From Edaphobacter sp. 12200R-103 (GTDB lineage Bacteria; Acidobacteriota; Terriglobia; Terriglobales; Acidobacteriaceae), in NCBI RefSeq assembly GCF_010093025.1, contig NZ_CP048114.1:3844001-3908000 (forward strand): a stretch of DNA of 64,000 bases. Reading direction: 5' to 3'. Every line of letters begins with the position of its first letter. The stretch's first letter is position 1. Both the position numbers and the translations under genes were made by a program. The notes beneath the pieces were generated by a model that worked only from the letters and a program-made list of their open reading frames with translations, made no database searches and had not been told where the DNA came from. This document shows, in pieces, positions 53,332 through 62,355 of the stretch.

Positions 53332-53940
53332 ATGGCAAGCAAAGGAATTCTTCGCCAGGATAAGCACGAGATACATCCACTGGCAGGCAAGACCCTGATC
53401 GAAGCGCCGATTATTGCAGCGGTTAATGATCCCAGCGCCTTTGAAGTTGCGTTAGAGAGCCCTCCACGGGCAGTGTATCTGCTAACCGGTAATCCTCTTT
53501 CTTTACCCGCGATGCTTCGACGGGCAGCGGAGAGAGGGAAACAGTGCTTGGTGAATATTGACTTTCTTGACGGCCTTGCGCGCGATAAGTTTGCGGTCGA
53601 ATTTCTGGCGAGTCACGATGTCGCGGGAATTGTTTCAACACGTTTCGAGATTCTAAAGGCGGCGCGGTCCTTCGGGCTGATTACGATCCAGCGAACTTTT
53701 AGCCTTGATACAGCGGCGGTGGCTGCTACAGTGCGATCATTGTCGCAGTTTCTTCCGGATGCTGTTGAGGTGCTGCCTGCAATGGCAGCACCCAAGGTTT
53801 CACGACGCTTATTGAAAGATCATCCGGGATTGCGAATTATCGGTGGTGGATTGATCGAAACCGTTAGAGAGATCGAAGATCTTCTGGCTGCGGGAATTGA
53901 TGCTGTCTCTGTAAGCGATCAGCGTCTATGGCTTATTTGA
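53332..53940 (+). CDS. glpP: GlpP-like RNA-binding antiterminator
   Basis: This protein has 202 residues from the ATG at 53332, which has GGGAGG four to five bases upstream. A more upstream ATG at 53293 would overlap the predicted -10 box and is rejected. The TIM-barrel-like GlpP fold is recognised from PIIAAVNDPSAFEVALESPPRAVYLLTGNPLSLPAMLRRA, KQCLVNIDFLDGLARDKFAVEFLA, GIVSTRFEILKAARSFGLITIQRTF and the C-terminal DAVEVLPAMAAPKV...IIGGGLIETVREIEDLLAAGIDAVSVSDQRLW. In Bacillus GlpP binds leader RNA with glycerol-3-phosphate and prevents termination upstream of glp genes. No glp gene is here; the convergent polyol-type operon has a terminator in its leader and is the likely target. Confidence 0.88.
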   Translation: MASKGILRQDKHEIHPLAGKTLIEAPIIAAVNDPSAFEVALESPPRAVYLLTGNPLSLPAMLRRAAERGKQCLVNIDFLDGLARDKFAVEFLASHDVAGIVSTRFEILKAARSFGLITIQRTFSLDTAAVAATVRSLSQFLPDAVEVLPAMAAPKVSRRLLKDHPGLRIIGGGLIETVREIEDLLAAGIDAVSVSDQRLWLI

Positions 53941-54982
53941 TGATGTTCCGGTGCGCAAGGACCTCAGGATTTGCGCAGTAGCGCAACGTTCCGTTCTGGA
54001 GGTAGCTTTGCAGCTCTTCTGCAGCAATCCGTGTGGCCTTGATTGCGGCCTGCTTTGTGCCCCCGGCGATATGGGGCGTCATGATGAAGTTGGGAAGTTG
54101 TAGAAGGGGTGAGCCGGATGGAAGCGGTTCTTCAGGAAAGACGTCTGCCGCGGCTGCGAACAGATGGCCGGAACGAAGAGCCTGTTCAACGGCATCATAG
54201 TCCATAAGTGTTCCACGAGCGCAGTTCACCACCACTGCTCCGGGCCGGAGTTTAGCAATCTGAGCTGCGCCGAGAATATTGCGGGTTTCTGCAGTTTCGC
54301 GCGCGTGGAGAGAGACAACATTCGAACGTTCCAGCAACTCATCAAGGTGGTTTACCTGTACCACGGGGTCTCCGTCGCCGATTTGAGCGTACGGGTCATA
54401 GCAGAGGACGGTTGCGCCAAATCCATTCAGGATGCGGGCTACGATGTTGCCGATTGCGCCGTAGCCTATGAGTCCCACGGTTGCAGTTTCTAGTTCAAAA
54501 CCAGCTGTATCCCAGGTGTAGTCTCCCTTCCACTGGCCGCGACGGATGGCGGCGTCAGTCTGTGGGATGAAGCGAAGCGCACTGAGCAGCAGCGCAATGG
54601 TATGTTCGGCGGTTGCTGCAGCATTGCGTGCGGGCGTATAGGCAATGGCGATGCCGTACTCTGTGGCGGCGTGAATGTTTACATTGACTGGGCCACCACG
54701 GCACACAATAAAGAGTTTGAGGCCTTTTGCTCGTTCCATCACGCGCTGCGTTAGAGGAGCATGATGTGCGATGCAGATCGAGACTCCCTGAAGCGCATCG
54801 ATCATCTGCTCTTCAGAGCCGGAGGCTTCGCGAACCTCAGCGATATTGCGGAACGGCTCAATTGGAAAAGGAGTTGATGCTTCGACGATCTCAAACCGAT
54901 TAACCAACGCCCCAAGCGAAGCGCGCATGAGTCGGGGAGAGATAAAGTGGTCTCCAATAACGAGGAGCTTTTCTTGTGTCAT
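53933..54982 (-). CDS. D-isomer-specific 2-hydroxyacid dehydrogenase
   Basis: This 349-residue enzyme has an NAD-binding loop GYGAIG at 173-178 and the catalytic triad R256 (NCARGTL), E285 (VFPEEP) and H304 (TPHIAGGT), as in phosphoglycerate or glycerate/hydroxypyruvate dehydrogenases. There is no C-terminal ACT domain, so it is not a full SerA. It is the last gene of the five-gene operon and its stop overlaps the stop of the convergent glpP-like gene by eight bases. In the pathway it could oxidise or reduce a 2-hydroxy or 2-oxo acid made from the imported substrate; the actual compound cannot be read from the sequence. Confidence 0.88.
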   Translation of the reverse strand: MTQEKLLVIGDHFISPRLMRASLGALVNRFEIVEASTPFPIEPFRNIAEVREASGSEEQMIDALQGVSICIAHHAPLTQRVMERAKGLKLFIVCRGGPVNVNIHAATEYGIAIAYTPARNAAATAEHTIALLLSALRFIPQTDAAIRRGQWKGDYTWDTAGFELETATVGLIGYGAIGNIVARILNGFGATVLCYDPYAQIGDGDPVVQVNHLDELLERSNVVSLHARETAETRNILGAAQIAKLRPGAVVVNCARGTLMDYDAVEQALRSGHLFAAAADVFPEEPLPSGSPLLQLPNFIMTPHIAGGTKQAAIKATRIAAEELQSYLQNGTLRYCANPEVLAHRNIIK

Positions 54983-55000
54983 TGATGATTGATCTCCTTC

Positions 55001-55615
55001 TCAGGGAAGTAACAAGGGCGCATTGAAAGATAAAAGGCTGATGACAGGATCTTTTATTTCTACTTCAGTGACGGTGCAGTTGTGGAATACGGGAAATACA
55101 TGCCGATAGCGTGACAGAGGGATATCAAGCGCCTGGCAGAGAATCAGACGGAGAAGTGTGCTGTGAGCCACGACAAGAGCCTGCCCGTCTGGAGGCGTTG
55201 CGGCTGCGATGGAACGCAGTGCAGTCAGGCCTCGTTTTGCAGCCGCAACGGGGTCTTCGCCATCGGGAAAGTGATGATGGACTGGATCTAGGCGAAAGGC
55301 TGCGAGCGCTTCAGGCATTGCAGCTTCCATCTCAGAGACCGTAAGGCCTTCTCCTCGTCCGAAGTCCAACTCCACAAGTCGATCTTCAATCTGTAGCGGA
55401 AGGCCTAGAGCATCGGCAGCGGGTGTCGCTGTTTCGATAGCACGGGATAACGGGGAAGACCAGACAGCTTGAATATCGGCTTTTGTAGCCCATTGTGCAA
55501 GACGAACCGCCTGCTGTTTCCCTTTGTCTGTGAGAGCAATATCGGTTTGGCCGGCGTACCGGTTCTCGGCATGCCAGATTGTTTCTCCATGACGAGCAAG
55601 AAAGAGGTGGCTCAT
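55001..55615 (-). CDS. Histidine phosphatase (phosphoglycerate-mutase-like)
   Basis: This 204-residue branch-1 histidine phosphatase has ARHGET at 7-12 with phosphoacceptor H9, the second Arg in SSPLSRAIETA, an acidic LVELDFGRGEG loop and the second His in VVAHSTLLR. It is a single domain of typical length for PhoE/GpmB/CobC-like phosphatases. Its start overlaps the stop of the upstream FGGY kinase by four bases (ATGA), showing translational coupling. A phosphatase in the same operon as two sugar kinases suggests removal of a toxic phosphorylated intermediate or control of flux; the substrate is unknown. Confidence 0.88.
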   Translation of the reverse strand: MSHLFLARHGETIWHAENRYAGQTDIALTDKGKQQAVRLAQWATKADIQAVWSSPLSRAIETATPAADALGLPLQIEDRLVELDFGRGEGLTVSEMEAAMPEALAAFRLDPVHHHFPDGEDPVAAAKRGLTALRSIAAATPPDGQALVVAHSTLLRLILCQALDIPLSRYRHVFPVFHNCTVTEVEIKDPVISLLSFNAPLLLP

Positions 55616-57075
55616 AGAGTTGCACCCTGGAGAGTAGCGGATGCGATTGAACTATCAATCCATCCTCTTTTTTCAAGTTCGCTGACGAACCTTCGATACT
55701 GTTCGAAGTACATTGATGATTGTCCCGTTGGTTCGATGATTGTTTCGATATGCACCATGCGCTTTGCGACACGGTCCAGAGTGTCTGCGGACGATGCGGC
55801 GAGTACAGCCATGCCAAATGCGGCTTCTGCAATAGCGGGAACAATCAGAGGACGACAAAGAACGTCTGCGCGGATTTGATTGAAAGCGTCGCTTTTCGTC
55901 GCGCCGCCGGAGATGAAGAAATCGCCATTCTTCGGAACCCCGTTGACGGCCATGACATCGACGCAGAGCCTCTCCGTGCAGGCTATACCTTCGAGAATCG
56001 CGCGATATCTGGTGTCTTCCGAATCGATCACTCCGAGCGTGAACCCAGTTGCGTCGGGGTTCGCAAAGGGAAAGCGTTCTCCAAGACCGCTCAGTGGATA
56101 CATGACGACACAGGAGGGAGGCGAGGTTTTGGCAGAAAGGTTCAGCTTTGGAAGGTCTTCGCTTTTAAATTCCTTCGCTATGATCCCTGCGCCTACGCTG
56201 GATGCTCCACCAGGAAGCCACATTCCATCTGGAGAGCGATGTGAATAGATGACGCCATGCGGGTCGCACAAAAGACGTGGTGTCACTCCCTTCAATACAA
56301 GCGTAGTGCCGATGACAGAATTCCAGCTGCCCAGAGCAACAGCACCAGAGGCGATCTGTGAGGCACAGCCATCGGTCATGCCTGAGTAGATGGGAGTTCC
56401 AGCGGGAATGCCAGTCTCTTCAGTTGCGTGATGTCCAGTTTCTCCGATGCGAACGCCGGGACGGACAACCTCTGGCAGGACAGCCGGATCGATTTTCAGG
56501 GATTGCAGTACGTCTTCGGGCCATCGATCACTCAGCTGATCGTATCCAGTTTTCAGGGCATGACTGGTGTCTGTCGCGAGCATTGTTCCGGCCAGACGAG
56601 CGTTGATGAAGTCATTTTGATGAAGGATGCGATTGCCGGAATGAATCAAACCGTGGTTTGAAAGCCACACGATTTTAGGCAGAGCCCAGGAGGGCTGCAT
56701 CCGATAGCTCATCCGTTGCCAGACATCGTTTCCGATATGGTTGACGTCTTTGGCTTCCACCACCGCCCTGCCATCGTCATACATCAAGGCGGGTCCACTG
56801 GGGCGGAGTTGAGAATCCGTAACGACAATGGTTCCCGACGTCGCATCGACGGCAATGCCTAAAATGGGTACTCTGGCAAGCTGTGTTGTTACCTGCTTGC
56901 AACCGATACAGACTGCACGCCACCATTCTTCTGCATTTTGTTCGTGACGATTGTTTTCTCTTGAACTGGTGAGTGGCGCTGACGCGGCTGCAACCACCCA
57001 GCCATCTTCCGTAACTGCCATCACCTTGACGCTTTGTGTCCCCAGGTCGATGCCAAGATAGACCGAATCCTTCAT
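55612..57075 (-). CDS. FGGY-family carbohydrate kinase (copy 1)
   Basis: This 487-residue kinase of the FGGY fold has the N-terminal ATP-binding loop GIDLGTQSVKV, the substrate region MYDDGRA, the catalytic-base region SGMTDGCASQIASGAV and the C-terminal ATPase motif FFISGGATKSDAFNQIRADVL. It overlaps by four bases with the other FGGY kinase upstream and with the phosphatase downstream. FGGY kinases phosphorylate sugars and polyols (xylulose, ribulose, glycerol, erythritol, AI-2). The two copies in this operon are only distantly similar, so they probably act on different compounds or in sequence. Confidence 0.9.
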   Translation of the reverse strand: MKDSVYLGIDLGTQSVKVMAVTEDGWVVAAASAPLTSSRENNRHEQNAEEWWRAVCIGCKQVTTQLARVPILGIAVDATSGTIVVTDSQLRPSGPALMYDDGRAVVEAKDVNHIGNDVWQRMSYRMQPSWALPKIVWLSNHGLIHSGNRILHQNDFINARLAGTMLATDTSHALKTGYDQLSDRWPEDVLQSLKIDPAVLPEVVRPGVRIGETGHHATEETGIPAGTPIYSGMTDGCASQIASGAVALGSWNSVIGTTLVLKGVTPRLLCDPHGVIYSHRSPDGMWLPGGASSVGAGIIAKEFKSEDLPKLNLSAKTSPPSCVVMYPLSGLGERFPFANPDATGFTLGVIDSEDTRYRAILEGIACTERLCVDVMAVNGVPKNGDFFISGGATKSDAFNQIRADVLCRPLIVPAIAEAAFGMAVLAASSADTLDRVAKRMVHIETIIEPTGQSSMYFEQYRRFVSELEKRGWIDSSIASATLQGATL

Positions 57076-58541
57076 CGGTCACCTCGAAGCACGCGCCACT
57101 GCGAGGATGCGGAATCGCGCAATGAAAGCCATGTTTTATAGCGTGTCGTAAAGGTGTCATTTTCATGCGCTCGAGGCGTAAATGTGCTGGCCTCTGTCTC
57201 GAGGTGGAGGCTACTGTCCGTCTGAGATGTTGCTGTACGAGCCCATAGAAAAGCTCCTCGTGCGCCGTGCTCCGCGCTTCCAGGCCGAATCACATTCACC
57301 CCGATGACATCTGCAATCATCTGGCACCAGAGATCGCTGTTCGCTCCGCCTCCGGAGACACGAACGTCTTGCAGGGTGGAATCGGAAGTGCGCTCGAGAC
57401 ATTCGCGGATGACGAACGTGAGGCCTTCGTACAGGGCGTGACAGATTTGCGATGGCGAGCTATGAAACGACAGGTTATGAAAGCTGCCACTAGCCTTTGG
57501 TTCAAGAAAGGGGGCTCGTTCTCCGGCGGACGACAGGTAAGGAAGAAAGAAAGGGTTTTCTTTCGAGATACACGCTGATTGCGCGAACCGCTGAAGTTGT
57601 TGTTGATCATCGTTCGCGAGAAGTTTGGATCCCCAGCGTAGTGCCTCACAGCCAGTGAGCGTGGGCATGGCACGGAGAAACTGCCCGTCTTCCAAGGCAA
57701 TAGTAGTTCCAGAGGCAGACTGGTCGAGATCGATAGTTGGAAGAATCGTCTCCGTGCAGATGGTAGTGCCGAGAATGACACAAGCCTGTGTGGAAGTGTT
57801 TACGCCACATCCAATGGCAGTTGTGACGATGTCATAGGGGGCCATCAGCACAGGTGTACCTATAGGGATACCCATCTGCTGAGCTGCAGTGGGGGTGAGC
57901 GTCGCGATGAGATCATCCGCCTGCGAGATTGGGGGCAGCTTCTCCATATATCGTTCCAGCCCAAATAGCTTAAGCAGCTCATCGGAGTAGCATCGCTTTT
58001 TTACATCGCAAAAAGGATTAGAAGCGTCGGAAAGGTCGGCGATAGAACGACCGGTCATGCGGGAAAAAAGCCATCCGTTGCAAGTGAGCACCCAGCGTGC
58101 CTGCACAAGCGTCTGCGGTTCATGTTGGGAGAGCCAGCTGAGAATCGCATTCGGCAATCCGGCATACGATGCCGATCCGGAGATGCCGAAAGCATGATCG
58201 ATGATGCCTTCTTTGTGCCAGCGCTCGATAATTTTATGCGCGCGCCCGTCATTCCAAAGAATAGCGTTTCGAACTGGATTGCCATGAGAATCGACGAGCC
58301 AGCAGCCATCTCCCTGTGCTGTGGATACGATGCCGGTGATCGGCTCCGCACATCGCTCAACGACCTGGCGAACGACCGATACGACAGAGCGCCAGACGTC
58401 CAGTGGGTTCTGCTCTGAGTAATCCTTATGAGGCCGCAACAGTTCTGTGCTGGCACGTGCGAGTGCGAGTTCCTTGCCTGTATCGCTGAAGGCAATTGCT
58501 TTAATCACTGTTGTTCCCGCATCAATTGCGATCCAGGCCAT
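57072..58541 (-). CDS. FGGY-family carbohydrate kinase (copy 2)
   Basis: This 489-residue FGGY kinase opens with AIDAGTTVIKAIAFSDTGKE. It has WNDGRA in the substrate region, MAPYDIVTTAIGCGV around the predicted catalytic Asp, and the C-terminal motif VRVSGGGANSDLWCQMIADVIG. The start codon directly abuts the stop of the MFS permease gene, and the stop overlaps the start of kinase copy 1 by four bases. Compared with kinase 1 it has a different N-terminal loop (DAGTT versus DLGTQ), arguing for separate specificity. Substrate unknown; the permease family suggests a pentitol, tetritol or related ketose. Confidence 0.9.
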   Translation of the reverse strand: MAWIAIDAGTTVIKAIAFSDTGKELALARASTELLRPHKDYSEQNPLDVWRSVVSVVRQVVERCAEPITGIVSTAQGDGCWLVDSHGNPVRNAILWNDGRAHKIIERWHKEGIIDHAFGISGSASYAGLPNAILSWLSQHEPQTLVQARWVLTCNGWLFSRMTGRSIADLSDASNPFCDVKKRCYSDELLKLFGLERYMEKLPPISQADDLIATLTPTAAQQMGIPIGTPVLMAPYDIVTTAIGCGVNTSTQACVILGTTICTETILPTIDLDQSASGTTIALEDGQFLRAMPTLTGCEALRWGSKLLANDDQQQLQRFAQSACISKENPFFLPYLSSAGERAPFLEPKASGSFHNLSFHSSPSQICHALYEGLTFVIRECLERTSDSTLQDVRVSGGGANSDLWCQMIADVIGVNVIRPGSAEHGARGAFLWARTATSQTDSSLHLETEASTFTPRAHENDTFTTRYKTWLSLRDSASSQWRVLRGDR

Positions 58542-59810
58542 TTAAATCTCCACTGTTCTTTCGTCAGGAATTGTGAGGGTCCATGCCATCAGGCTGCTCA
58601 ACAGGTACAGTCCTGCAAAGATCCACATCAGACCGCCAATTCCAACAGTGTGATAGAAGATGCGCACCAGGCCCGGTCCCACGAGCATGGCGCCGCCTGC
58701 CCCGAGACTAAGCAGAGAAAGTGCCTCGCCGCGATTCTCAGGAGCAAGCATGGGAGCGAGCGCGGAGAGGGGTACGTAGCCGGCCAGGGTAGCCCCATAC
58801 AGCATACCTACCACAATGCTGAGACCGTAACTTCCAGTAGCCAGCGGCACATAATAAAGTGCGAGTGTGGTAACAGTACATCCCAGTCCACCGCAGATGG
58901 CTACGGTTTGACGCCAACCCATCCGATCACCGATAAGGCCGAAGAGCAGGTTCCACACAATATTAGAAAGGAAGATCGCACTGAGCAGTGTGAGAAATTG
59001 CGCCTGGGTCAAGCCGATCCGGTCCTGAAAAAATGCAGGGAGAATAATGAAGAATCCAAACTCGGGTGCGGTATTGATGACGCGGACAATGCATGCAATT
59101 CCGGTCTTTGGTTTTCGCCACGCGAGGGTGACAGAGTGCAGGAGCGCTCGAAAAGGTTTTTCATTTTCAGAGACGAGGCGGGAAGCACCTTGCGGTTCAC
59201 GGACCCCGATGAGCAGAACCACTCCTCCTGCGAGGGCGAGCAGCGTCGCAAGCCATAACGTCCCGTATTGGCCGATCCGGGGGATTGAAAGTCGTGCAAC
59301 CTGTGATCCCAGCGTAGGGAGTCCGCCGGTAAATGCAAACCAGAACCAGCCCATGGCAGAGGCTAGCCTTTGCTTGGGGGCGGCAACCGTGATCCATACA
59401 AGAAATCCAAAGGCAAAGAGCGGATAACCGAGACCGCGGAGGCCATAGGTGGTCAGGATAGCTGGATAGGACGCGTGCCGTAATCCGAGCGTCAGAAAAA
59501 GCGTCTGAAAGAAGAGCCACAACAAGAGGCCGACTTTGATGACGCGCCGAGGCCCCCATACATCGGAGAGAGAGCCGGAGAGCCATCCGGCAAGTGCAGC
59601 CATCGCTCCGTAAAAAGAAGAAATTGCGGCGGCTCCATCGATAGAAAGGCCGCGGCTCACAAGATAAGGGGTCAGGAATCCGGATTCGACGCCGTCACCG
59701 ATCATGAACAGCAGCAGACCTACAAATCCCCACCTCAATACATGAGGTATGCCGATCGTATCGAGGCCTGATGGAGTATCTGCTGCCGAGTTCTCTCTGA
59801 GTGAAACCAT
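58542..59810 (-). CDS. MFS permease, RbtT/DalT polyol-type family
   Basis: This 422-residue, 12-helix permease has motif A in GWLSGSLSDVWGPRRVIK and a second-half copy in LLFGLIGDRMGWRQT. The long loop between helices 6 and 7 (GVREPQGASRLVSENEKPF) and overall style resemble the RbtT/DalT/CsbX group that imports ribitol, arabinitol or keto-acids by proton symport; assignment to that group is by recall, not alignment. It is the first gene of the operon. The 5' leader of about 100 bases contains a terminator and a competing hairpin. The ribosome site (GGGG seven to four bases before ATG) is modest. Confidence 0.85.
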   Translation of the reverse strand: MVSLRENSAADTPSGLDTIGIPHVLRWGFVGLLLFMIGDGVESGFLTPYLVSRGLSIDGAAAISSFYGAMAALAGWLSGSLSDVWGPRRVIKVGLLLWLFFQTLFLTLGLRHASYPAILTTYGLRGLGYPLFAFGFLVWITVAAPKQRLASAMGWFWFAFTGGLPTLGSQVARLSIPRIGQYGTLWLATLLALAGGVVLLIGVREPQGASRLVSENEKPFRALLHSVTLAWRKPKTGIACIVRVINTAPEFGFFIILPAFFQDRIGLTQAQFLTLLSAIFLSNIVWNLLFGLIGDRMGWRQTVAICGGLGCTVTTLALYYVPLATGSYGLSIVVGMLYGATLAGYVPLSALAPMLAPENRGEALSLLSLGAGGAMLVGPGLVRIFYHTVGIGGLMWIFAGLYLLSSLMAWTLTIPDERTVEI

Positions 59811-59846
59811 AGACCCCGCAAATCAGCCGTTTTCTCTTGTGAGCGT

Positions 59847-59894
59847 AAAAAGCCGCCCCATCCCCATGACAACTCATGAGTGTGGGGCGGCTTT
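59847..59894 (-). terminator. Leader terminator (attenuator) of the polyol-type operon
   Basis: On the minus strand AAAGCCGCCCCA (59894-59883) pairs perfectly with TGGGGCGGCTTT (59860-59849), 12 bp, and the T-run continues to 59847 (TTTTT in all). The 22-base loop itself can fold into a 5-bp hairpin (CATGA/TCATG). It lies inside the 5' leader, 36 bp before the permease start codon and about 20 bases after the predicted transcription start, the position of an attenuator and not of an end-of-gene terminator. Confidence 0.85.
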
Positions 59895-59908
59895 CGATTC
59901 TCTGCCGC
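59887..59908 (-). promoter_or_regulatory. Possible antiterminator hairpin in the operon leader
   Basis: GCGGC (minus strand 59908-59904) can pair with GCCGC (59891-59887), leaving a 12-base loop. The second arm is the core of the terminator's first strand, so the two structures exclude each other. With only five base pairs it would need a bound protein to win, as expected for a GlpP-like factor. Confidence 0.5.
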
Positions 59909-59919
59909 TGACGATCTGG

Positions 59920-59949
59920 ATAATGCAGGAAAATGGTGTGGACTGTCAA
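59920..59949 (-). promoter_or_regulatory. Sigma70-type promoter of the polyol-type operon
   Basis: Minus strand: perfect -35 TTGACA (59949-59944), 18-base spacer, -10 CATTAT (59925-59920, four of six). Predicted start near 59913 gives a leader of about 100 bases before the permease ATG at 59810. Confidence 0.6.
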
Positions 59950-60030: not shown

Positions 60031-62355
60031 ATGATGAAAAAGATCGCGATGCAGAAAAAGTGGATAGTGATGTGCATCGCAGGCGTAATTGTAGGGATTA
60101 GTGAAGGGCAGATGCATGCGGCAGAGGCGAAGACCGCGACGGAAGCCTTGGATTATGTCAGGCCCAACATTGGTGGCATCGGGCAGCTGCTCACAGCGAC
60201 GATTCCCTATGTGCAGTATCCCTATGGGATGGCGCGATTGGCTCCGATCACGACGCCGGGCATCAAGGATCGCTATCTTGCGGACAAAATCTACGGATTT
60301 CCTGCGGGGCTGGCGACGCTGATGATATCGACTGGGCCGGCGGACACCCATGTGAAGGGCTATGCATCGGAGTTTGATCATGATTTTGAGACCGCGACTC
60401 CTTATTACTATGCCGTGAACCTCGATACATGGAATGCAAAGGCGGAACTGACGGCAGGGGAGAAGAGCGCGTACTACCGGTTTACGTTTCCGGCGGCGAC
60501 GCATGCGCATGTCGCGCTGAGCCTGCAGGATCACGCTGAGATTGCGGTTGCAGGTGATCGTGTGGTGCAGGGGAGCGAGCGGGTTCGCGACAATATTGCC
60601 AGCACCTCAGGCACAGGAGGAGAGACGCGAGAGTATTTCTACGCGGAGTTTTCGCGCCCCGTCGCAAACTGGCAGACGTGGAAGGGCGACACCTTTTCGC
60701 ATGATGCGAAACAAAGCGGCGATGGCATCGGGTTTGTAACCGATGCTGCAGAGAAGCAGGGCGAGCAGGTGGAGGTTCGGGTCGGCATATCGTATATCAG
60801 CGTAGAGCAGGCGAAACGAAATCTGGAGGAGGATGCGAAGGGCCGCACCTTTAACGGAATGAAGGCTGCCGCGCGCGAGAAGTGGAACCAGGCGCTGGAT
60901 GGTATTCAGACGGTGGGAGGGACGGAGAAGGAACGTGCCATCTTCTACACGGCGCTGTGGCGGTCGATGGGGAGAATGACGGATATTACGGAAGGCCACC
61001 GCTACTTCAGTGGCTACGATCACGCAGTGCACGATGCGCAGCGGCATCACTTCTATGTCGATGATGGGTTGTGGGACACGTACCGCTCGCTGCATCCGCT
61101 ACAACTGCTTCTGGATCCGGTGCGGCAGCAGGATATGGTGCGATCGTACCTAAGGATGTACCAGCAAAGCGGATGGATGCCATCGTTTCCGTCGGTTGCC
61201 GGAGAGCGTGCGGTCATGATCGGTCACCATGCGGCGGCGCTGATCGCCGATATGTACGAGAAGGGATATCGGGACTTCGATGTGAACCTGGCGTATGAGG
61301 CGATGCGGAAGAATGAGACGGAGGCTACGATGCTTCCGTGGCGAAGGGGACCGCTGACCAGCCTGGACAAGGTGTACTTCGAGAAGGGATTCTTTCCGGC
61401 GCTGGCGTATGGCGAGAAGGAGAGCGTGCCGGAGGTTACGGAAGAGAGGCGACAGGCCGTATCCGTAACTCTGGAGAACGCCTATGACGCGTGGTGCGTC
61501 GCACAGCTGGCCAAGGCATTGGGCAAGACTGAGGATGCGGCGTATTTCACCAAACTCGCGCATAACTATGAAAACGTCTTCAACCCTGAGATTGGCTTCA
61601 TGGCTCCGCGCAGCGCAGATGGCAAGTGGGTGGAGCACTTCGATCCGAAGCTTGGAGGAGGGCAGGGAGGGCGCGATTACTTCACAGAGGTGAACTCGTG
61701 GCTGTACACGTTCCATGTGCAGCACGATGTTGCGGGGCTGGTACGGCTGATGGGTGGACGCGAGGCGTTTGCGAAGAGGCTGGACCGGCTGTTTGTAGAG
61801 CAGTATGGGACATCGAAGTATGCGTACCTTGGGCAGTTTCCAGATTCGACGGGACTGGTGGGGTTGTATGCGCAGGGGAACGAACCCAGCTTCCACATTC
61901 CCTACCTATACGACTTTGTTGGACAGCCTTGGAAGACGCAGAAGCATGTGCGGCAGTTGCTGGATGTCTGGTACGGGGATGGGCCGTTGGGAATTCCTGG
62001 AGACGACGACGGCGGCGAAACCTCGTCATGGTATGTGCTGAGCGCGATCGGATTTTATCCGGTCTGTCCAGGTAGTCCGGTGTATGAGATCGGGAGTCCG
62101 ATCTTCACAAAGAGCACCGTGCGGCTGGGCAATGGCAAGGAGTTCACCGTGCTTGCAAATGGCGCCTCGGCCCAGAACAAGTATATTCAATCGGCACGTT
62201 TGAACGGGAAGCCGCTGAACCGGCCGTGGTTCCGGCACTCGGAGATCGTAAATGGAGGCTTGTTGGAACTGGAGATGGGAGACAAGCCGAATGTGCAGTG
62301 GGGCAGCCGTCCAGAGGATGCTCCACCATCGATGAGTTCTCAACAGCCGAATTGA
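60031..62355 (+). CDS. GH92 family exo-alpha-mannosidase
   Basis: The protein has 774 residues from the ATG at 60031, with AAGGAG about ten bases upstream; a further ATG is the next codon. An open frame back to 59749 would run through the opposite operon's leader and is rejected. The signal peptide ends near MHAA. The N-terminal beta-sandwich (DYVRPNIGGIGQLLTATIPYVQYPYGM) and the catalytic alpha-barrel show DGLWDTYRS, GEKESVPEVTEERRQAVSVTLENAYDAWCVAQLAKALG and the GH92 signature GDDDGGETSSWYVLSAIGFYPVCPG from about residue 657. GH92 enzymes are Ca2+-dependent, inverting alpha-mannosidases acting on mannan or glycoprotein glycans. It is divergent from the polyol-type operon and convergent with the ClC gene. 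Confidence 0.9.
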   Translation: MMKKIAMQKKWIVMCIAGVIVGISEGQMHAAEAKTATEALDYVRPNIGGIGQLLTATIPYVQYPYGMARLAPITTPGIKDRYLADKIYGFPAGLATLMISTGPADTHVKGYASEFDHDFETATPYYYAVNLDTWNAKAELTAGEKSAYYRFTFPAATHAHVALSLQDHAEIAVAGDRVVQGSERVRDNIASTSGTGGETREYFYAEFSRPVANWQTWKGDTFSHDAKQSGDGIGFVTDAAEKQGEQVEVRVGISYISVEQAKRNLEEDAKGRTFNGMKAAAREKWNQALDGIQTVGGTEKERAIFYTALWRSMGRMTDITEGHRYFSGYDHAVHDAQRHHFYVDDGLWDTYRSLHPLQLLLDPVRQQDMVRSYLRMYQQSGWMPSFPSVAGERAVMIGHHAAALIADMYEKGYRDFDVNLAYEAMRKNETEATMLPWRRGPLTSLDKVYFEKGFFPALAYGEKESVPEVTEERRQAVSVTLENAYDAWCVAQLAKALGKTEDAAYFTKLAHNYENVFNPEIGFMAPRSADGKWVEHFDPKLGGGQGGRDYFTEVNSWLYTFHVQHDVAGLVRLMGGREAFAKRLDRLFVEQYGTSKYAYLGQFPDSTGLVGLYAQGNEPSFHIPYLYDFVGQPWKTQKHVRQLLDVWYGDGPLGIPGDDDGGETSSWYVLSAIGFYPVCPGSPVYEIGSPIFTKSTVRLGNGKEFTVLANGASAQNKYIQSARLNGKPLNRPWFRHSEIVNGGLLELEMGDKPNVQWGSRPEDAPPSMSSQQPN

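Follow-up and report, generated by a model that had tools for sequence, protein, structure and literature searches.

The known role of GlpP is the regulation of glycerol genes. Passages of PMC9604022 describe, for glpD, glpFK and glpT of Bacillus subtilis, a promoter with a GlpP site and then an intrinsic terminator downstream of it in the 5′ untranslated region (UTR). The subject of the present study is a GlpP-family gene of Edaphobacter sp. 12200R-103 and the operon that faces it, both located in a 64,000-nucleotide stretch of DNA (the window: contig NZ_CP048114.1, positions 3,844,001 to 3,908,000, forward strand) from a 4.55-Mb genome that consists of a single contig. The operon encodes a permease of the major facilitator superfamily (MFS), two FGGY kinases, a histidine phosphatase and a 2-hydroxyacid dehydrogenase. 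This arrangement raised a question: could a protein of the GlpP family control a pathway other than that of glycerol? Judging from the two hairpins in the operon's leader, their conservation, their co-occurrence with GlpP, the clade structure of the protein and the lack of a detected leader on glpK-glpD, all of them read from sequence, we conclude that GlpP very probably (a probability of roughly 0.86) controls this polyol operon via leader antitermination, in what would be a new variant of the GlpP system.

A preliminary description of the window had reported a glpP-like gene converging on a five-gene operon, and this was confirmed. The glpP product matches PF04309 (G3P_antiterm) over the entire profile (positions 1–173 of 173) at 3.6e-48 and 163.7 bits, against a cut-off of 27. 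By sequence it is akin to two proteins of solved structure (PDB 3KTS, 1.5e-22; 1VKF, 2.5e-20), and its closest named relatives, from Terriglobus albidus and an Acidobacteriaceae metagenome-assembled genome (MAG), are 81% identical to it. The glpP and dehydrogenase genes overlap tail to tail by 8 bp. Within the operon, which occupies the minus strand, neighboring genes overlap or adjoin each other or have a gap of 18 bp. The permease exceeds the cut-off of TIGR00897 (505 vs. 375 bits), and the dehydrogenase fell below every NCBIfam cut-off in the profile search. Among solved structures, the one closest in sequence to kinase A is xylulose kinase 2itm; for kinase B they are 5htn, a “probable sugar kinase”, and, lower down, 2itm.

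All of the leader elements that had been proposed upstream of the permease gene are present: a TTGACA/CATTAT promoter, a GCGGC/GCCGC hairpin and a 12-bp intrinsic terminator with a T-run. The permease ATG, at 59810, lies 36 nt past the end of that run at 59847. The folding of the leader is better than that of all 200 shuffled versions (z = -5.04). The two hairpins draw on a common GCCGC arm, and the proposed competition between them is consistent with prefix folding: the antiterminator is part of the best fold at lengths of 28–56 nt, and the terminator replaces it from about 60 nt. By stability alone, the two structures stand at -7.3 kcal/mol (antiterminator) and -34.8 kcal/mol (terminator). 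A structural scan of the 64-kb window returned a single match, the operon leader itself. Scans of 10 kb for simpler signals gave no excess over shuffled sequence, either for promoter-like sites (4 vs. 6.7), among which the leader promoter was the best of the 4, or for terminator-like sites (8 vs. 8.9), although the latter scan admits only loops of 3–8 nt and cannot see the leader terminator.

From these elements we infer the following mechanism, which extends to protein binding, antitermination, ligand and substrate. A sigma-70-type promoter would give rise to an operon transcript whose leader can form either of two mutually exclusive hairpins. The early hairpin, GCGGC-AGAGAATCGAAA-GCCGC, would be the binding site of the GlpP encoded by the convergent gene. 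Loaded with its ligand, GlpP would hold the antiterminator and keep the common arm from the terminator, such that polymerase could enter the five genes; without ligand, the far more stable terminator would win, and the transcript would end near 59847. The features concerned are collected in Table 1.

Table 1. Features of the glpP locus in the window, and the related modules of Actinomycetota (positions of the latter are those of the named locus)
Feature	Position	Strand	Basis or remark
glpP-family gene, antiterminator (PF04309)	53332..53940	+	start codon uncertain: 53293, 53320 or 53332
D-isomer-specific 2-hydroxyacid dehydrogenase gene, last of the operon	53933..54982	-	PF02826, 1.1e-53
Histidine phosphatase (branch 1) gene	55001..55615	-	PF00300, 7.7e-54
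FGGY kinase B gene	55612..57075	-	PF00370/PF02782
FGGY kinase A gene	57072..58541	-	PF00370/PF02782
MFS permease gene, RbtT/DalT/CsbX (polyol) family, first of the operon	58542..59810	-	TIGR00897
-35 box, TTGACA	59944..59949	-	promoter scan; kept in relatives
-10 box, CATTAT	59920..59925	-	promoter scan; 18-nt spacer to -35 box
Anti-arm GCGGC, 5′ arm of antiterminator	59904..59908	-	pairs with 59887..59891
Purine-rich antiterminator loop AGAGAATCGAAA, 12 nt, presumed GlpP recognition site	59892..59903	-	conservation
Common arm GCCGC, 3′ arm of antiterminator and part of terminator 5′ arm	59887..59891	-	
Intrinsic terminator, 12-bp stem AAAGCCGCCCCA/TGGGGCGGCTTT, 22-nt apical stretch	59849..59894	-	folding; covariation in relatives
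Terminator U-run	59847..59851	-	sequence
Kinase-kinase-phosphatase-dehydrogenase module, Streptomyces plasmid L115	6049..13317		
Kinase-kinase-phosphatase-dehydrogenase module, Streptomyces plasmid L116	5858..11921		
Kinase-kinase-phosphatase-dehydrogenase module, Nonomuraea L117	6722..11317		

The operon and its leader occur together in six genomes: that of the window, T. albidus (L012, on the same contig as G330/L037), the Acidobacteriaceae MAG (L011), G291 (L038), G354 (L036) and G096 (L095). A convergent glpP accompanies them in L011, L012, L038 and L036. The window, L011, L012 and L038 share the 26-nt antiterminator block AGCGGCAGAGAATCGAAAGCCGCCCC, loop included, letter for letter but differ in the spacer and in the apical loop of the terminator; the leaders of L036 and L095 have a similar but variable loop in which AGAGA and the arms are retained. 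TTGACA is kept in all six leaders; in L036 and L095 the -10 box is retained only loosely. The sixth genome, G096, was first noticed through the RNA model described below. Its operon and leader reside on contig C8 and both of its glpP genes on C11, so the control could act in trans, and the leader has been retained without close linkage to glpP. A permease of at least 70% identity was found in 5 of 396 genomes when the four best candidates per genome were scored, and all five have a GlpP of the clade that goes with the polyol operon. By its sequence, the leader resembles a switch maintained by selection.

Fourteen leaders were aligned, and a covariance model was made of the terminator and the sequence upstream of it. 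The preliminary description had looked to covariation of both hairpins. This is seen in the terminator stem, where four pairs have changed on both sides, a number reached by none of 500 shuffles; the anti-arm, for its part, varies jointly with the common arm in L011b, L040a and L005. Both the model, with a leader threshold of E ≤ 1e-4, and PF04309 were searched against one set of 396 Acidobacteriota genomes. GlpP was above its cut-off in nine genomes, the leader was found in nine, and eight were common to both (Fisher p = 5.8e-15); six of these eight had contributed rows to the model, and when they are set aside, GlpP is found in three of the remaining 390 genomes, the leader in three and both in two (p = 1.2e-4). 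Three further genomes had sub-threshold GlpP matches and no leader. Eight matches fell outside the model’s own rows, and what follows each of them fits: glpD (G026 and G354), glpK (G322), the polyol operon (G330 and G096), a TonB receptor gene (G186) and, twice, genes for secreted proteins (G354). Of 61 relatives, the four with GlpP, three of which had supplied rows, all had matches at E ≤ 1.1e-10, and the remaining 57 had none at that level. The leader element provides a searchable RNA motif.

Several observations weigh against GlpP-dependent antitermination. In the antiterminator stem only two pairs have changed on both sides, a count that 38 of 500 shuffles also reached. The pairing of the anti-arm with the common arm in 100% of rows is partly circular, most rows having come from scans that demanded it. 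In a structural scan of 418 kb of loci (overlapping copies included), every match was a leader no more than about 7 kb from glpP, a restriction that is partly built in, as most of these loci were chosen for containing glpP. Weak model matches (E from 5e-6 to 0.0075) occur in five GlpP-negative genomes, and a 22-nt pattern, allowed three mismatches, hit, apart from the window itself, seven sites in six GlpP-negative genomes among 41 relatives, compared to one hit for the reversed control. The draft genome G322 has a leader before glpK, yet GlpP was not found in it. Conversely, the GlpP-positive genome G067 gave no model match at E ≤ 1e-4, its weaker matches lying on contigs other than that of glpP; a diverged leader-like stretch before its glpD was seen by eye only. 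Looser scans brought in extra leaders, along with matches in L044, L045, L047, L048 and L050 that were rejected as leaders and one in L013 that appeared chance-like.

How does the polyol operon’s GlpP relate to the glycerol genes? Relatives carry the same leader design before glpK or glpD in their glycerol loci (L005, L006, L007, L034, L040 and L114). Each genome with the polyol operon contributes one GlpP (those of the window, L011, L012, L036, L038 and L033, the last being the second glpP copy of G096) to a single clade with support of 100/99, and this clade is separate from the acidobacterial GlpPs that adjoin glpK or glpD. Both G096 and G354 possess one GlpP of the polyol clade and one of the glycerol type, and their leaders differ in loop length: 12–13 nt at the polyol operon vs. 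15–18 nt elsewhere. The window genome’s own glpK-glpD-glpF genes (contig C1, 4135–4139 kb, about 235 kb away) have no leader match at E ≤ 1. Indeed, the polyol leader is the sole strong model match in that genome; a second one, at 3064555 (E = 0.005), showed neither promoter nor U-run and was taken as chance. GlpP here seems to be a paralogue dedicated to the polyol operon, with no control over the glycerol operon of its own genome. The comparison of six genomes, the co-occurrence with GlpP, the separate clade and the glpK-glpD genes with no detected leader thus lend strong support to the earlier proposal that GlpP may control a non-glycerol pathway, and they suggest that GlpP paralogues are split between glycerol and another pathway within the same cells.

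The nature of that pathway is approached through the permease. Like the transporters of the RbtT/DalT polyol operons, whose substrates are ribitol and D-arabitol, it scores above the TIGR00897 cut-off, and the 48% identical permease of G096 adjoins genes for a mannitol dehydrogenase, a PfkB protein and an ALO-type oxidase; the permease family and these neighbors point to a sugar alcohol as the probable substrate. Unlike those operons, that of the window contains no polyol dehydrogenase gene, and so it is a reasonable guess, by analogy with glycerol kinase, that a kinase acts first on the polyol. The likeliest signal for GlpP would be the phosphorylated product of one of the operon’s FGGY kinases, e.g., a polyol phosphate, an assignment that we favor with modest confidence. 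We lean to a similar degree toward a ligand that is not glycerol-3-phosphate.

The strongest alternative accepts GlpP antitermination as real but retains glycerol-3-phosphate as the ligand, the operon being part of a glycerophosphate or glycerol response. It differs from the preferred reading in the ligand only, and the confidences in the two are not mutually exclusive; we regard it as doubtful, though worth entertaining. Twenty-one alignment positions separate the polyol-clade GlpPs from six acidobacterial glycerol GlpPs, and Listeria GlpP shares two of these clade-specific residues, F90 and R103. The alignment gives no sign of a changed ligand site and is compatible with both glycerol-3-phosphate and another ligand. 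Moreover, a second leader in L038, which precedes a gene for a type I phosphodiesterase, could fit the scavenging of glycerophosphodiesters. Yet no leader match was detected near glpK or glpD in any of the three fully searched genomes whose sole GlpP is of the polyol type (that of the window, G291 and G330), and the two GlpP clades and distinct loop lengths of G096 and G354 suggest two insulated signals. That the five-gene module of Streptomyces is accompanied by a DeoR/GlpR-type regulator, with no match to GlpP, likewise speaks against this ligand.

A second alternative casts GlpP as a bystander: the leader would be an attenuator or riboswitch with direct binding of a metabolite, or would be governed by another protein. 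In our estimation this is very unlikely. Intrinsic terminators are common in leaders, and Rfam 15 gave no match at E ≤ 1 on the leaders of four loci (L014, L041, L040 and L013), which leaves room for a new riboswitch; its only three matches in these loci were in L041, away from the leaders. However, the leader tracks GlpP through the phylum, it stands before glpK or glpD where GlpP is of the glycerol type, and its antiterminator hairpin, at 22 nt, is small for an aptamer. Hairpins with AGAGA or GGAGA loops are also present at Escherichia coli and Enterococcus loci that encode GlpP relatives. Finally, the strong 12-bp terminator stem could mean that the hairpin merely blocks transcription or stabilizes the RNA, with no regulated read-through, but this is more improbable still, as the antiterminator loop is conserved where the apical loop of the terminator is not, and the anti-arm changes jointly with the common arm in the three leaders listed above.

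Additional leaders of the GlpP type lie before other genes. Second leaders in L011 (7485, plus strand) and L038 (8040, plus strand) are followed by a gene and then by glpP; in L038 the intervening gene is that of the type I phosphodiesterase (PF01663), which suggests autoregulation of glpP together with the phosphodiesterase. Leaders also precede genes for TonB-receptor-like or secreted proteins in L035 (9559 and 5761, minus strand), L033 (9525, minus), L092 (6302, minus), L093 (3500, minus) and L094 (3219, plus). The receptor-like genes match OMP_b-brl_4 in L035 (5887–9642) and L092, a second one in L035 having been recognized by eye, and the secreted proteins have weak LTD or NHL matches. 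These suggest that the GlpP regulon includes a branch for uptake across the outer membrane. A leader in L013 (8698, minus strand), from a Terriglobia MAG, is located before genes of the enolase superfamily (MR_MLE) and of the Abhydrolase_10 family, divergent from glpP. In the window itself, a GH92 gene (60031–62355, start assigned by eye) is divergent from the polyol operon and drew no match in the relatives’ loci read (L011, L012, L036–L038 and L095).

Annotated GlpP genes beside an FGGY kinase gene or other non-glycerol genes also appear in plasmid records of Klebsiella, S. clavuligerus and Enterococcus. The Klebsiella leader came from the looser structural scan. Others were read by eye (E. 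coli yqcE, Cytobacillus glpF and glpD, the E. gilvus SDR gene, Vescimonas and Planococcus, the last two being the weakest). A stricter cross-phylum scan of 16 loci recovered only the leaders of E. coli ygcW and of two Enterococcus MFS genes. Of 15 plasmid loci, seven were read by eye (L042, L044, L045, L046, L049, L051 and L052) and five of these showed a leader; none was seen in the stretches read of S. clavuligerus (L046) and Peptoclostridium (L044). The other eight (L043, L047, L048, L050 and L053–L056) were scanned. The papers listed for GlpP leaders, GlpP outside glycerol, YgcP, the ygc genes and PF04309, mostly in the form of abstracts and with passages of PMC9604022, PMC3750489, PMC3997798 and PMC3946193, offered no description of non-glycerol GlpP targets and no functional study of YgcP or the ygc genes. 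A possible kinship to the B. subtilis yoaDCB operon gained nothing useful from the literature and was dropped.

A broader proposition, which we hold by a slight preference, is that GlpP is one branch of a group of RNA-binding antiterminators that sense polyol or sugar phosphates produced by FGGY-type kinases and use a common, portable leader hairpin with an AGAGA-type purine loop and a 3′ arm that also serves the terminator. The acidobacterial paralogue would have been re-specialized to the phosphate of a polyol other than glycerol, kept apart by loop length from the glycerol GlpP where the two coexist, and YgcP of E. coli would represent another branch.

Three systems can be compared with that of the window. 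Members of the DeoR/GlpR family of regulators are often responsive to sugar phosphates, and it is with such a regulator that the five-gene module is found in Actinomycetota: Streptomyces plasmids L115 and L116 encode an MFS permease, two FGGY kinases, a histidine phosphatase and a 2-hydroxyacid dehydrogenase at 41–55% identity to those of the window. Unlike the window, these loci contain no GlpP match; by position, L115 falls under an annotated DeoR/GlpR-family DNA-binding protein, and a DeoR-like open reading frame was seen by eye in L116. The Nonomuraea locus L117 has the kinase-kinase-phosphatase-dehydrogenase module with no match to an RbtT-type permease. One conserved five-gene module would thus be served by an RNA antiterminator in one lineage and by a DeoR-type regulator in another, an apparent swap and a case of regulator replacement.

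The arrangement in E. coli K-12 is similar in its regulator: YgcP, a GlpP relative (28% identity, 8.7e-27), is encoded by a gene that converges on a non-glycerol operon, ygcQRSUW. The sugar kinase gene ygcE is close by, its product being 24% identical to kinase B (1.9e-18), and both divergent leaders of the ygcW/yqcE intergenic region (L041, 16275–16592) have an AGAGA-loop hairpin whose 3′ arm opens a terminator. The enzymes are different, being annotated as dehydrogenases and flavoproteins. From this likeness in sequence, ygcWUSRQ and yqcE-ygcE are likely targets of the uncharacterized YgcP, and their leaders provide candidate sites for its action; the ygcW-yqcE region is present at a coverage of at least 80% in 4998 of 5426 E. 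coli genomes.

With B. subtilis, finally, the window shares a GlpP-family protein and the order of promoter, GlpP site and intrinsic terminator in the 5′ UTR, as far as passages of PMC9604022 describe it. The likeness of the hairpin itself was judged by eye from the sequences upstream of Cytobacillus glpF and glpD, not from those of B. subtilis. In contrast to the Bacillus system, the window GlpP belongs to a separate acidobacterial clade and coexists with a glycerol operon that has no detected leader, and its putative target is the five-gene operon described above rather than the genes of glycerol metabolism.

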